Shown here: in pieces, positions 35,875 through 55,699 of the stretch
Position numbering within the stretch: position 1 is the stretch's first letter
How the letters are laid out: the number at the start of each line of letters is the position of its first letter
NCBI RefSeq assembly: GCF_900111745.1
Contig: NZ_FOIJ01000027.1
Coordinates: forward strand, 1-64,000
Reading direction: 5' to 3'
From: Stigmatella erecta
GTDB taxonomy: Bacteria > Myxococcota > Myxococcia > Myxococcales > Myxococcaceae
Length of the DNA: 64,000 bases
The notes under the pieces: generated by a model
What the model was told of the DNA's origin: nothing
What the model saw: only the letters and a program-made list of their open reading frames with translations
The model's database searches: none
Program-made: the position numbers and the translations under genes

Positions 35875-35883
35875 CATAAGAAC

Positions 35884-35963
35884 GGCCGGGACACACGCGA
35901 AGGTGCGCTACCGTTGCTTCCTTCCGGACCTGGCGGGGTTCACGTCCCCACGTTGTCCCGACC
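35884..35963 (-). ncRNA. ffs: Signal recognition particle RNA, bacterial small (4.5S) type
   Basis: About 80 nt, with the conserved apical domain GTCCGGAAGGAAGCAAC (GGAA tetraloop closed by CC/GG, and the asymmetric bulge that binds the Ffh M domain) and closing helix GGTCGGGACA with TGTCCCGGCC. It forms the protein-targeting particle with Ffh. It is 16 bases downstream of tRNA-Ser(GGA) on the same strand, so it may be processed from the common transcript. Exact ends are estimated from the closing helix. Confidence 0.95.
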
Positions 35964-35979
35964 ACAAAAACAACAACTA

Positions 35980-36066
35980 CGGAGGGGGTGGGATTCGAAC
36001 CCACGATACCCGTTAAGATATACACGCGTTCCAGGCGTGCGCCTTCAACCGCTCGGCCACCCCTCC
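35980..36066 (-). tRNA. tRNA-Ser (GGA)
   Basis: 87 nt with acceptor GGAGGGG/CCCCTCC, discriminator G, a long variable arm, anticodon loop CTGGAAC giving GGA, and T-arm GTTCGAATC. It reads UCC and UCU. It is the last tRNA in the serine tRNA cluster. Confidence 0.97.
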
Positions 36067-36079
36067 AAGACACAGAGAG

Positions 36080-36166
36080 CGGAGAGCGTAGGATTCGAAC
36101 CTACGGTACCGTTGCCGGTACGCCTGATTTCGAGTCAGGTGCCTTCGACCACTCGGCCAGCTCTCC
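36080..36166 (-). tRNA. tRNA-Ser (CGA)
   Basis: 87 nt with acceptor GGAGAGC/GCTCTCC, discriminator G, a long variable arm and anticodon loop CTCGAAA giving CGA, which reads UCG. It starts six bases after the tadA stop on the same strand. Confidence 0.97.
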
Positions 36167-36171
36167 AATAT

Positions 36172-36636
36172 TCACTTGTCGCGCTTCTTCTCTCGCAACC
36201 GCCCGAAGAAGCCCTTGAGAAGCTGACGGCTTTCGTCCGCCAGAATGCCACTTGTCACTTGGAGCCGGTGGTTGTGCCGGGGCTCCTCGACCAGGTTGTA
36301 GAGCGAGCCGGCCGCGCCCGCCTTCGGATCCAGGGTTCCAAACACCAACCGGGTGACCCGGCCCTGAACCATCGCGCCCGCGCACATCGCACAGGGCTCC
36401 AAGGTAACGTACAGGGTGACGCCGGTGAGCCTCCAGACCCCCAGTGCCCGCGCCGCGGCATCCAGTGCCAGCAGTTCCGCGTGTGCGAAGGGGTGGCGGT
36501 CGATTTCCCGGCGGTTGAAGCCCGTGCCGATGACCTGGCCCTGGTGTACCGCGACCGCGCCCACGGGGACCTCTCCCAAGGCTTCGGCTTCCCGCGCCAG
36601 CGCAAGCGCCTGCTGCATGAAAGCCTCGTCACTCAT
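36172..36636 (-). CDS. tadA: tRNA(adenine34) deaminase TadA
   Basis: 154 residues. TadA deaminates A34 of tRNA-Arg(ACG) to inosine so that one tRNA reads CGU, CGC and CGA. The zinc site is HAE (52-54, with Glu54 as the proton shuttle) and PCAMC (81-85). Its only usual substrate, tRNA-Arg(ACG), is encoded 25 bases upstream in the same transcript. tRNA-Ser(CGA) follows six bases after the stop, so the coding region is sandwiched in a tRNA operon and its mRNA end is probably made by tRNA processing. Confidence 0.96.
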   Translation of the reverse strand: MSDEAFMQQALALAREAEALGEVPVGAVAVHQGQVIGTGFNRREIDRHPFAHAELLALDAAARALGVWRLTGVTLYVTLEPCAMCAGAMVQGRVTRLVFGTLDPKAGAAGSLYNLVEEPRHNHRLQVTSGILADESRQLLKGFFGRLREKKRDK

Positions 36637-36660
36637 GAGGAGGTGCCGCGAGAAAGAGAG

Positions 36661-36734
36661 CGCTCCCTGGAGGATTCGAACCTCCGGCCTTCGGATTCGT
36701 AGTCCGACGCTCTATCCAGCTGAGCTAAGGGAGC
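36661..36734 (-). tRNA. tRNA-Arg (ACG)
   Basis: 74 nt with acceptor GCTCCCT/AGGGAGC, discriminator G, anticodon loop CTACGAA giving ACG, and T-arm GTTCGAATC. A34 is the target of TadA, whose gene is 25 bases downstream. Confidence 0.97.
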
Positions 36735-36766
36735 ATGTCTTTCGACGCCGCTACAACGATAAGTGG

Positions 36767-36853
36767 CGGAGAGAGAGGGATTCGAACCCTCGATACCCTT
36801 TCGAGTATGCAGGTTTAGCAAACCTGTGCCTTCAGCCTCTCGGCCATCTCTCC
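36767..36853 (-). tRNA. tRNA-Ser (GCT)
   Basis: 87 nt with acceptor GGAGAGA/TCTCTCC, discriminator G, a long variable arm and anticodon loop TTGCTAA giving GCT, which reads AGC and AGU. Confidence 0.97.
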
Positions 36854-36904
36854 AACTTTTCTCTGTCAAAGAACCGCGTAAGGCAAGAACAAAATCAGCG
36901 ACTT

Positions 36905-36991
36905 CGGAGGAGGTAGGATTCGAACCTACGGAGAGCTTTCACCCTCTGCGGTTTTCAAGACCGCTGCCTTCAGCCGCTCGGCCACTCCTCC
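36905..36991 (-). tRNA. tRNA-Ser (TGA)
   Basis: 87 nt with acceptor GGAGGAG/CTCCTCC, discriminator G, a long variable arm and anticodon loop CTTGAAA giving TGA, which reads UCA and, by wobble, UCG. It is the first tRNA after serS, 82 bases from the serS stop. Confidence 0.97.
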
Positions 36992-37073
36992 ACTTCATGG
37001 ACCGTACGGCCCGCCCAGATGCGCGGGGCCGCCCTTCTACCTCATTCTTCGCCCATTGCAATGGGGATGTGGC

Positions 37074-46791: not shown

Positions 46792-47715
46792 ATGAGACCG
46801 GCGATCGTCGTCACGGGCATCAGTGGCAACCTGGGCCGTACCCTCGCCAAGCTCTTGCACAAGAGCGAGCGCATCATCGGCATCGACCGGCGGCCCTTCC
46901 TGGGCAAGCCGAAGGATGTCGAGATGTACCAGCTGGACTTGCGCAAGAAGAAGGCCGAGGACGTCTTCCGCAAGAACGAAATCCGGGCCGTCATCCACAT
47001 GGGCATCATGCACGACCCGCGCATGAGCGAGGAGGAGCACCACTCCTTCAACGTGGTGGGCACCACGCGCCTGCTGGAGTACTGCGCCAAGTACGGGGTG
47101 AAGAAGGTCGTCGTCCTCTCCTCGGCCAACGTCTACGGGCCCAGCCCCGACAACTCCAACTTCCTCACCGAGGACGCGCCCCTGATGGCGGCCAGCCGCT
47201 TCTCGGGGGTCCGGGACTTGATCGAAGTGGACATGCTCGCGCATGGCTTCTTCTGGCGGCACCCGGACATCAACACCGTCATCCTCCGGCCCGTCCACAT
47301 CGTGGGCCCCACCATCAAGAACGCGCCCTCCAACTACCTGCGGCTGCGCCACCCGTGGACGCTCGCCGGGTTCGATCCGATGGTGCAGCTCATCCACGTG
47401 GAGGACGCGGCGCGCGCCATGGTGGAGGCCCTGCGCCCCGAGCCCAAGGGCGTCTACAACGTCGTCGGCCCGGGCGAGGTGCCCCTGTCCTCGGTGCTGC
47501 GCGAGCTGGGCCACACGCCCATCCCCGTGCCGCACCCCATCGCCCGCCCCGTGCTGGGCATGCTCTTCAAGTACCGCCTGGCCAACTTCCCCCCGCCCGA
47601 GCTGGACCACATCCAGTTCCTCTGCAACGTGGATGGCAACCGCTGGCTGAAGGAGCTGGCCTGGAAGCCGCGCCACTCCATGCGCGAGACGATCCGCTCC
47701 GTCCTCGGCGAGTAG
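46792..47715 (+). CDS. NAD-dependent epimerase/dehydratase-like protein lacking YxxxK
   Basis: 307 residues of the extended SDR fold. The NAD-binding motif is TGISGNLGRTL (residues 8-18) and SSANVYGP gives the usual Ser region. The catalytic Tyr-Lys pair is absent where expected: ASRFSGVRDLIE stands in place of YxxSK, with Phe for Tyr and Arg for Lys. It may bind NAD without classical chemistry, use other residues, or act as a regulator. The C-terminal substrate half is intact (RPVHIVGP, VEDAARAMVEAL). The tail of the gene is followed by the promoter region of the sRNA. Confidence 0.86.
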   Translation: MRPAIVVTGISGNLGRTLAKLLHKSERIIGIDRRPFLGKPKDVEMYQLDLRKKKAEDVFRKNEIRAVIHMGIMHDPRMSEEEHHSFNVVGTTRLLEYCAKYGVKKVVVLSSANVYGPSPDNSNFLTEDAPLMAASRFSGVRDLIEVDMLAHGFFWRHPDINTVILRPVHIVGPTIKNAPSNYLRLRHPWTLAGFDPMVQLIHVEDAARAMVEALRPEPKGVYNVVGPGEVPLSSVLRELGHTPIPVPHPIARPVLGMLFKYRLANFPPPELDHIQFLCNVDGNRWLKELAWKPRHSMRETIRSVLGE

Positions 47716-47727
47716 TCTGAGGGGGGC

Positions 47728-47741
47728 TGACACCCGTGTCA
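47728..47741 (+). promoter_or_regulatory. Inverted repeat 1 upstream of the sigma-54 promoter (candidate activator site)
   Basis: TGACACCCGTGTCA is a perfect 14-base inverted repeat about 145 bp before the -24 element. A related, less perfect element lies 45 bp downstream. It could be an enhancer-binding-protein site; a small hairpin ending the epimerase transcript is the alternative. Confidence 0.45.
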
Positions 47742-47772: not shown

Positions 47773-47786
47773 TGACAGGCTTGTCG
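47773..47786 (+). promoter_or_regulatory. Inverted repeat 2 upstream of the sigma-54 promoter (candidate activator site)
   Basis: TGACAGGCTTGTCG is an imperfect copy of the palindrome at 47728-47741, centred 45 bp downstream and about 100 bp before the -24 element. Paired sites at such distances are usual for sigma-54 activators. Confidence 0.4.
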
Positions 47787-47873: not shown

Positions 47874-47889
47874 TGGCACCCGCCTTGCT
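47874..47889 (+). promoter_or_regulatory. Sigma-54 (-24/-12) promoter
   Basis: TGGCACCCGCCTTGCT matches the sigma-54 consensus TGGCAC-N5-TTGC[AT] at every conserved position, with the strict GG-N10-GC spacing. Transcription should begin around 47900 on the plus strand and enter the small-RNA region. No coding gene begins within reach before the terminator at 47942-47986. Confidence 0.85.
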
Positions 47890-47899
47890 TTGTCTTAGC

Positions 47900-47986
47900 A
47901 GCAAGTAAACCTGGTAGGGGGTTCCATTGGGGAACCCTCGACGCCCGTCGCCTCGGCCGGCCCCGAGTCGACGGGCGATTTTTTTT
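47900..47986 (+). ncRNA. Sigma-54-driven small RNA, Pxr-like candidate
   Basis: About 87 nt between a perfect sigma-54 promoter and a strong terminator. A first stem-loop pairs the region around 47916-47925 (agggggttcc) with 47930-47938 (gggaaccct), and a second long hairpin is the terminator. Size, sigma-54 control and stem-loop structure recall Pxr, the sRNA that blocks fruiting-body development in Myxococcus and is found across Cystobacterineae. I cannot compare the sequences here, so the name is a hypothesis; the RNA gene itself is better supported. The 5' end is estimated from the promoter. Confidence 0.7.
47942..47986 (+). terminator. Rho-independent terminator of the sRNA
   Basis: CGCCCGTCG (47942-47950) pairs perfectly with CGACGGGCG (47969-47977). 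An inner CTCGG/CCGAG stem extends it, and eight T follow (47979-47986). The T-run meets the stop codon of the convergent lipoprotein gene at 47985. Confidence 0.92.
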
Positions 47987-48404
47987 ACGGCAGCTCGCCC
48001 GCGAAGGGCCCCTCGAGCTGGCGCTCCAGCAGCCACACGCCCCCCTGGTAGACGAACTCCGAGGTGGTGGTGGCCGTCTGCTCCGAGGCCGAGGGCAGGC
48101 GCATCCACTGAATGCGGCTCGTCACCGTGGCGCGCAGGCCGTCCGGCGCAAGGCCCACCTCGAGCACCTCGTAGTCGGTGATGGACAAGTCCCTCTCGTC
48201 GTGGAGCTCGCGCCGGGCCTTCAGGAAGGCCTCGCGGTGCTCGGGCACGAGGTGCCGGGACGCGCCCCGGAAGTCCTTCCAGCGCAGGCGCTTGTAGAAG
48301 TCGTCCACCACGGGCTGGAGACCCTCCAGACCGGTGCTCTTCGCCGTGTGGGCGCACGCCCCACAGAACAGGGCCAGCAGAACGAGGGGGACGAGCAGGC
48401 GCAT
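47985..48404 (-). CDS. Small lipoprotein with NTF2-like features
   Basis: 139 residues from the ATG giving MRLLVPLVLLALF. The signal ends in a lipobox-like CGAC, so it is probably a lipoprotein. The mature part (VVDDFYKRLRWKDFRGASRHLVPEHREAFLKAR, then TVTSRIQWMRLPS and SEFVYQGGVWLLERQLEGPF) has the helix-then-strands order of NTF2-like or DUF4878-type proteins. The function is unknown. The longer start at 48425 would add seven residues before the signal and is less likely. It is divergent from the TPR giant at 48500. Confidence 0.78.
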   Translation of the reverse strand: MRLLVPLVLLALFCGACAHTAKSTGLEGLQPVVDDFYKRLRWKDFRGASRHLVPEHREAFLKARRELHDERDLSITDYEVLEVGLAPDGLRATVTSRIQWMRLPSASEQTATTTSEFVYQGGVWLLERQLEGPFAGELP

Positions 48405-48499
48405 GGTGGTGGGTGACGGTAACACCTGGAAGTGGACCTACAAGAAGATCCCAGTGCTATCGTCTCGGCTCCGCCTGCGCACCGGAGTACCGAACGTCC

Positions 48500-55581: not shown

Positions 55582-55699
55582 CCTGCCCGCCCTCCGCGCC
55601 AGAAGGGCATAGCAACCCACGTGCCAGACCCTATCCCCTCGGTAGAGGGGCGCGCACCCGTCCCAGGGGGTGGGCAAACCGTCCCGTTTCGAGACGGCC

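Follow-up and report, generated by a model that had tools for sequence, protein, structure and literature searches.

Several kinds of bacterial small RNA (sRNA) bear comparison with the RNA described here. The Qrr RNAs of Vibrio combine sigma-54 with an NtrC-like activator and occur in several copies per genome; these are separate genes whose products pair with mRNAs through Hfq, whereas our RNA family has modules arranged head to tail behind one promoter. CrcZ and CrcY of Pseudomonas, and the CsrB, RsmY and RsmZ RNAs, are signal-activated and carry repeated protein-binding motifs. Their partners are Hfq/Crc and CsrA, respectively, whereas neither Hfq nor CsrA was found in the genome that carries our RNA. 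QseF (GlrR), which recognizes TGTC-N10-GACA, likewise differs in its site from the TGACA-N4-TGTCA repeat at our RNA gene. GlmY and GlmZ of the enterobacteria, which form a RapZ decoy system, share with our RNA the sigma-54 promoter; in the accessible part of one account, GlmY is activated by the two-component system QseE/QseF and acts as a protein decoy (PMC7073468). By analogy, GlmY may be regarded as the nearest working parallel, the likeness being one of proposed mode of action, with no known relation in sequence.

Within the myxobacteria, Pxr is the only sRNA with functional studies in the literature searched, as far as titles and abstract openings disclose. Pxr of Myxococcus (pxr, with pxrK/pxrR) resembles our RNA in being a short, structured myxobacterial transcript with a sigma-54 promoter and tandem paralogues in some genera, and differs in sequence, locus and usual hairpin number. 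Excerpts of its description give three stem-loops as usual and two in some Cystobacter paralogues (PMC5568312); our RNA folds into two, so that hairpin number alone does not set it apart from Pxr. The NmpR regulon offers a further likeness, since it too joins an NtrC-type activator to paired inverted repeats upstream of sigma-54 promoters. We rejected NmpR as the activator of our RNA, however, because its site in M. xanthus, given as GCGCA-N5-TGCGC in the portion of the report at hand (PMC11841059), differs from TGACA-N4-TGTCA.

The DNA analysed, hereafter the window, comprises 64,000 nt of Stigmatella erecta (GCF_900111745.1, NZ_FOIJ01000027.1, positions 1-64,000, forward strand). An earlier note on it had proposed a sigma-54-controlled small RNA that might be a homologue of Pxr. 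From its sequence features (Table 1) and those of its relatives, we are confident that the window encodes a real sigma-54 sRNA distinct from Pxr. On our reading the gene stands alone, specifies a small structured RNA and represents a family separate from Pxr.

Table 1. Features of the sRNA locus and its immediate surroundings (window coordinates).
Feature	Position	Strand	Basis or remark
SDR, NAD-dependent epimerase/dehydratase, upstream neighbour	46792-47715	+	PF01370, E 2.9e-27
Distal inverted repeat TGACACCCGTGTCA, perfect TGACA-N4-TGTCA	47728-47741	+	146 bp upstream of promoter start
Proximal inverted repeat TGACAGGCTTGTCG	47773-47786	+	1 mismatch; 101 bp upstream of promoter start
Sigma-54 promoter TGGCAC-N5-TTGCT, TGGCACCCGCCTTGCT	47874-47889	+	exact consensus match
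Predicted 87-nt small RNA	47900-47986	+	start inferred from promoter (GC element placed at -13/-12), end from T run
Hairpin 1	47917-47939	+	9-bp covarying stem; pentaloop AUUGG at 47926-47930
Hairpin 2, terminator stem	47942-47977	+	loop CCGGCC at 47957-47962 within 12-mer CGGCCGGCCCCG at 47954-47965
Eight-T run, intrinsic terminator tail	47979-47986	+	sequence
Small convergent protein, outside RNA gene	47985-48425	-	lipobox-like start (own reading); no Pfam match

The perfect promoter, the eight-T terminator and a predicted transcript of about 87 nt between promoter and T tail, all claimed in the earlier note, were borne out. Its single stem-loop was correct in that the RNA folds, but the predicted fold has two hairpins and a free energy of -44 kcal/mol (z -3.6; none of 200 shuffles was equally stable). 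In the 64 kb, TGGCAC-N5-TTGCW with at most one mismatch is present at two sites, each of them exact, where chance predicts 1.48, so that the promoter is not significant by itself and its significance derives from conservation across loci. The second perfect site, TGGCACGTGGGTTGCT at 55611-55626 on the minus strand, lies just upstream of a gene whose protein reads as RadC/JAB-type.

That conservation was assessed in a selection of regions from most of the genomes with a match. The 82 loci include two genomes twice (L020 = L046, L030 = L047); duplicates and loci short of upstream DNA were dropped, giving denominators of 75 for the promoter and 74 for the repeat, although duplicates are still counted in a first repeat scan (76) and in the tally of G-U pairs and leader lengths (77). 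The promoter has no mismatch in 56 of the 75 loci, one in 16, two in 2 and three in 1, and thus at most one in 72; when these stretches were shuffled by mononucleotide, no perfect site arose and one mismatch was seen in 0.3%, a ratio that, like the others reported here, overstates significance because the loci are related to one another and the shuffles are mononucleotide. Promoter and module are mostly separated by either about 31-42 or about 72-86 bases, with one locus at 55. The 5' leader is variable among relatives, and those of the longer leaders that were folded contain one additional hairpin. In many genera this extra hairpin, of different sequence, lies between promoter and module in a leader some 50 nt longer (e.g., L043, L051, L061).

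The earlier note had made its proposal depend on conservation in related genomes, and the RNA is present in 95 of the 96 genomes of the window's own family, the Myxococcaceae (f1). A DNA query matches 95 of the 96, with weak matches in G013 and G081. A covariance model, run on 195 genomes of the phylum, also matches 95 f1 genomes, G081 and G082 included, and misses among them only G013 (79% complete); it further matches one genome of f7 and five of f8, two other families of the same order, which is apparently every f7 and f8 genome searched. The total of 102 matching genomes includes one weak match (G127) that we judged false, as it has neither promoter nor repeat. The window's genome has one true match (E 2.8e-18), followed by the reverse strand of the same hairpin (E 0.07) and a match at E 0.4. 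A weak match of 21.8 bits elsewhere in this genome (L093, G000:C1:363487-363560) may be chance or a degenerate relative, and three genomes (G001, G156, G081) have a second model match elsewhere.

Beyond these genomes, a core pattern modelled on f1 matches 55 contigs across 84,980 species; 54 of them belong to records titled as myxobacteria or as metagenome-assembled genomes of such or broader groups, and viral sequences scanned with the same pattern gave no match. The remaining contig (L225, BNCN01000011.1) has three sRNA modules and bears the title Comamonas sp. KCTC 72670. At 339,546 bases it is as long as contig G066:C11 of the Myxococcus group, and the Comamonas title looks wrong. Rfam 15 at gathering thresholds gave no match at the locus or at those of eight relatives. 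The best sub-threshold match in a 361-base search, Burkholderia ncS035 (E 0.003; 22.6 bits, where the cut-off is 79), is taken as the resemblance of a GC-rich terminator. Nor is the RNA named in the titles and abstract openings of the open-licence PMC literature searched, so that, as far as these searches show, the family is unnamed. It may already sit unrecognized in transcriptome data such as those of a study which, in the part available, counted sRNAs and then set them aside (PMC9548883).

The structure is conserved along with the gene. Seventy-two distinct modules align over 71 columns, an absence of gaps that is partly built in, as the modules were cut at fixed length around an anchor; the f8 copies are 1-3 nt shorter. 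Across the 23 base pairs of the two hairpins, 96.9% of 1656 cells are paired, and 12 pairs have changed on both sides. Double changes fill 134 cells, whereas shuffles average 35.4 and sliding the structure along the alignment yields no more than 12. RNAalifold recovers 22 of the 23 pairs unaided. G-U cells outnumber A-C cells by 59 to 10, which points to the plus strand as the RNA strand. The loops hardly vary: AUNGG occupies the pentaloop in 71 of the 72 modules and, by our own reading of the alignment, is kept in f7 and f8 while its closing pair changes. The 12-mer CGGCCGGCCCCG, which contains an 8-nt palindrome, is found in all 72 modules and in ten aligned matches from f1, f7 and f8; it served as the anchor in collecting the alignment, and is absent from only one of 77 loci selected by blast (some genomes being counted twice).

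In every one of the 27 genomes of the Myxococcus group (g19), and in no other genus, the model matches two to four times in one place. In the 16 arrays that were read the modules stand head to tail, with 24 of 27 spacings at 71 nt and three at 70, and no sigma-54-like site within them comes closer to the consensus than four mismatches. After the stem, the longest T run measures 2-3 in 24 of 27 inner copies and 4-6 in the other three, whereas it measures 4-6 in all 16 last copies. Given a single promoter and such short inner T runs, several modules can be contained in one transcript, although it may be partly terminated or processed within the arrays. In a contig titled M. xanthus AM003 the tandem consists of two modules.

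Upstream of the promoter lies a paired inverted repeat, TGACA-N4-TGTCA, which the earlier note does not mention. The best repeat 60-135 bp upstream has no mismatch in 39 of 74 loci, one in 25, two in 6, three in 2 and five in 2, so that 64 loci have at most one, compared with 0.1% of shuffles. These 64 repeats stand 90-91 bp (3 loci), 98-103 bp (44), 111-113 bp (16) or 129 bp (1) from the promoter; distances of about 90, 101 and 112 bp are mostly steps of roughly one helical turn. A second repeat with at most one mismatch lies 45-47 bp further upstream in 38 loci. In f7 and f8 (L124-L129), a repeat of the same quality stands 103, 123, 126, 93, 94 and 113 bp, respectively, upstream of the best promoter-like site, which has at most one mismatch except in L127, where it has three. 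One f8 copy (L130) has neither promoter nor repeat, the f8 genome G158 has the promoter only with three mismatches, and L132 has a perfect promoter and no repeat. Three g23 genomes of 2.1-2.7 Mb (L069, L070, L078) have kept the RNA, but there the promoter is weakened, with 1-3 mismatches, and the repeat is missing.

The perfect form of the repeat occurs at only five sites in the 9.2-Mb genome of the window, against one for a control pattern. When a promoter is required 83-113 bp downstream of it, 54 of the 96 genomes have one such place each (control: 0), and 52 of these places belong to this RNA family; with one mismatch in its proximal repeat, the genome of the window does not count towards the 54. 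We suggest that the paired repeat is likely an enhancer and a candidate binding site for an NtrC-type activator. A scan for GAFTGA-like motifs, confined to near neighbours (loci mostly of 3-6 kb) and to motifs other than GAFSGA-type variants, found enhancer-binding proteins only at pxr loci. We then compared three small f8 genomes in which the repeat is kept (G158-G160) with three small g23 genomes without it for their enhancer-binding proteins, a comparison of 30 loci that covers part of the places and in which three loci gave no protein. Two groups are present in all three f8 genomes and have no clear g23 counterpart among 27 proteins compared, one NtrC-like (L291/L299/L302) and one FHA-type (L305/L309/L311). 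Both are leads only, as candidate activators. The perfect repeat is absent from the 30 enhancer-binding-protein loci, the best having one mismatch (L297, L311).

An apparent second target of the repeat is the gene for a small protein whose start resembles a signal peptide with a lipobox; it follows repeat and sigma-54 promoter at 24 distinct promoters by eye and at 19 by a stricter automatic pattern. The lipoprotein-like signal ends in ATS (ASS in one case), and where the sequence extends far enough to be seen, a membrane protein follows. Neither protein had a Pfam match in the Stigmatella-group example. The window's genome has such a place (L141/L190, G000:C8:86539), with repeat and promoter before a small lipoprotein-like gene and a membrane protein; the other 23 promoters counted by eye are in relatives. 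A looser repeat with a gap of 52-82 bp finds 35 places in 29 genomes (control: 0), five of them sRNA loci, and among the places examined some precede no lipoprotein-like protein. The lipoprotein-like gene and the membrane protein are apparent regulon partners of the sRNA. In one genome (L184, G051:C771:4876), repeat and promoter stand upstream of a gene read from its protein start as lpxC. The lipoprotein-like and lpxC targets hint, if weakly, at an envelope signal.

We propose that a signal acting through the candidate activator would switch the RNA on, and that the RNA would act through its two near-invariant loops, AUNGG and CCGGCC, displayed on stable stems. These loops would bind one conserved partner without Hfq, ProQ or CsrA, none of which had a match in the window's genome, each control search being positive in at least one genome. 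The partner could be a protein that is titrated or altered by the RNA in the style of GlmY or CrcZ, and the two to four copies of the 71-nt module behind one promoter in the Myxococcus group would then supply more binding sites per transcript. As a whole, a signal-activated sRNA whose loops bind a conserved partner, with a protein favoured, is our best explanation, and we regard the chances for and against it as evenly balanced. The same even balance applies to protein-binding or decoy action, once a real sigma-54 sRNA distinct from Pxr is granted. Recognition of the loops is favoured over seed pairing because the loops are kept while the stems change, the leader is variable, and Hfq, ProQ and CsrA were not found. 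A CsrA sponge of the CsrB/RsmZ type was rejected, since no CsrA was found in the window's genome, the loop is AUNGG, and the f8 loops have no GGA. The fullest version of the proposal, a modular system confined to the myxobacteria in which an enhancer-binding protein senses a possibly envelope-related signal and drives both the RNA and, in some genera, the lipoprotein operon, the modules sequestering an RNA-binding protein, is offered tentatively and is rather unlikely to hold in all its parts.

This sRNA family is ordinary in kind; its conservation, the phasing of its repeats and its modular repetition are what is unusual. Being roughly as common in the family as pxr, it would, as a second sigma-54 sRNA, be a ready genetic target. 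Its invariant loops could serve as bait for the RNA-binding protein or the targets that Hfq-less bacteria use, and the repeats upstream could lead to an orphan enhancer-binding protein. If the proposal is true, a modular RNA would titrate an RNA-binding protein where no Hfq, ProQ or CsrA was found.

The strongest competing explanation is a sigma-54-dependent, Hfq-independent trans-antisense sRNA, in which the C-rich loop of hairpin 2, the AUNGG loop or both pair with conserved mRNAs and thereby block or activate translation, tandem modules raising the dosage. We consider it a serious contender somewhat short of even chances, a protein partner being slightly more likely than mRNAs. Pairing is how known sigma-54 sRNAs, Qrr among them, exert their effect, Pxr is thought to do so, and iterated modules suit base-pairing sRNAs as well; the 12-mer is invariant in all 72 modules, which were, however, anchored on it. 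Yet the RNA presents no unpaired conserved seed, as its leader is variable and its invariant bases lie inside stable hairpins, and its pairing with the 5' regions of co-regulated genes at eight loci was no better than that of mononucleotide shuffles (z -1.9 to +1.5).

Far less probable, to the point of being very improbable, is that the hairpins simply belong to the SDR transcript as a conserved terminator or repeat, with no separate RNA gene. An acyltransferase gene and the SDR epimerase gene lie upstream, and 70 of 82 loci (68 of 80 once duplicates are removed) have the SDR gene there on the strand of the RNA. The RNA does begin about 185 bp past the SDR stop codon, and a terminator closes it. 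But the conserved promoter and repeats stand between the SDR gene and the hairpins, the loop sequences go far beyond the needs of a terminator, and hairpin 1 covaries. Moreover, of the twelve loci without the SDR, six have fewer than 160 bases of upstream DNA, whereas the other six of the 82 have about 2.9 kb or more and retain the RNA with no SDR in sight. Downstream, most loci have a small convergent gene and a TPR protein; in g26 the small gene is at least 1.4 kb away in six of seven loci and was not found in the seventh, so that it is not a fixed partner.

That the RNA is Pxr itself, or a divergent pxr paralogue serving as developmental gatekeeper, has next to no probability left. The similar size class, the sigma-54 promoter and the Cystobacterineae host had made this identification attractive to the earlier note, which also looked to sequence comparison and flanking genes to settle it. 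A pxr query joined from published primer and probe sequences, as given in extracts of the source (PMC5568312), has one match in the window's genome, at G000:C5:120124-120227 (97%, E 1.6e-43), that is, on contig C5, whereas the window is on C27. This true pxr lies downstream of a gene for a GAFTGA-bearing NtrC-like protein, in keeping with partial texts of two reports in which pxrR (nla19), an NtrC-like regulator gene, adjoins pxr upstream (PMC5684412, PMC5568312). The same query matches 11 of 20 genomes searched (the window's own included), 11 of the 12 from the family among them. Aligned with the pxr of its own genome, the window RNA gives no significant similarity (best E 0.51); its neighbours are instead the SDR epimerase and the small convergent gene, and the best repeat upstream of pxr, TGAAACCGATTTCA, has two mismatches. 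Pxr orthology is therefore refuted by a true pxr elsewhere in the same genome, the lack of similarity and the different neighbours, and the earlier note's own alternative, a new sigma-54 sRNA, is strongly supported by conservation, covariation, promoter and upstream repeats. For the starvation decision, which the earlier note would place under this locus were it Pxr, the analysis gave no evidence of control.

Equally remote is a small-protein gene in place of a non-coding RNA: an 84-aa frame from TTG (47927-48181) does begin within the RNA and extend beyond its end, against the earlier claim that the region lacks a coding frame, and 58 of 75 loci have frames that continue beyond the end of the transcript, which is usual for GC-rich DNA, but these are spread over all three frames (40, 36 and 12 loci), the 71-nt period is not divisible by three, and the changes follow base-pairing. 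The claim holds loosely in that the relatives' predicted transcripts (75 loci), 18 of which contain a closed frame of at least 10 aa, showed no shared reading frame. Elsewhere in the window, at 35876-36992 on the minus strand, a bacterial small SRP RNA lies beside four tRNA-Ser genes with different anticodons and a tRNA-Arg gene.
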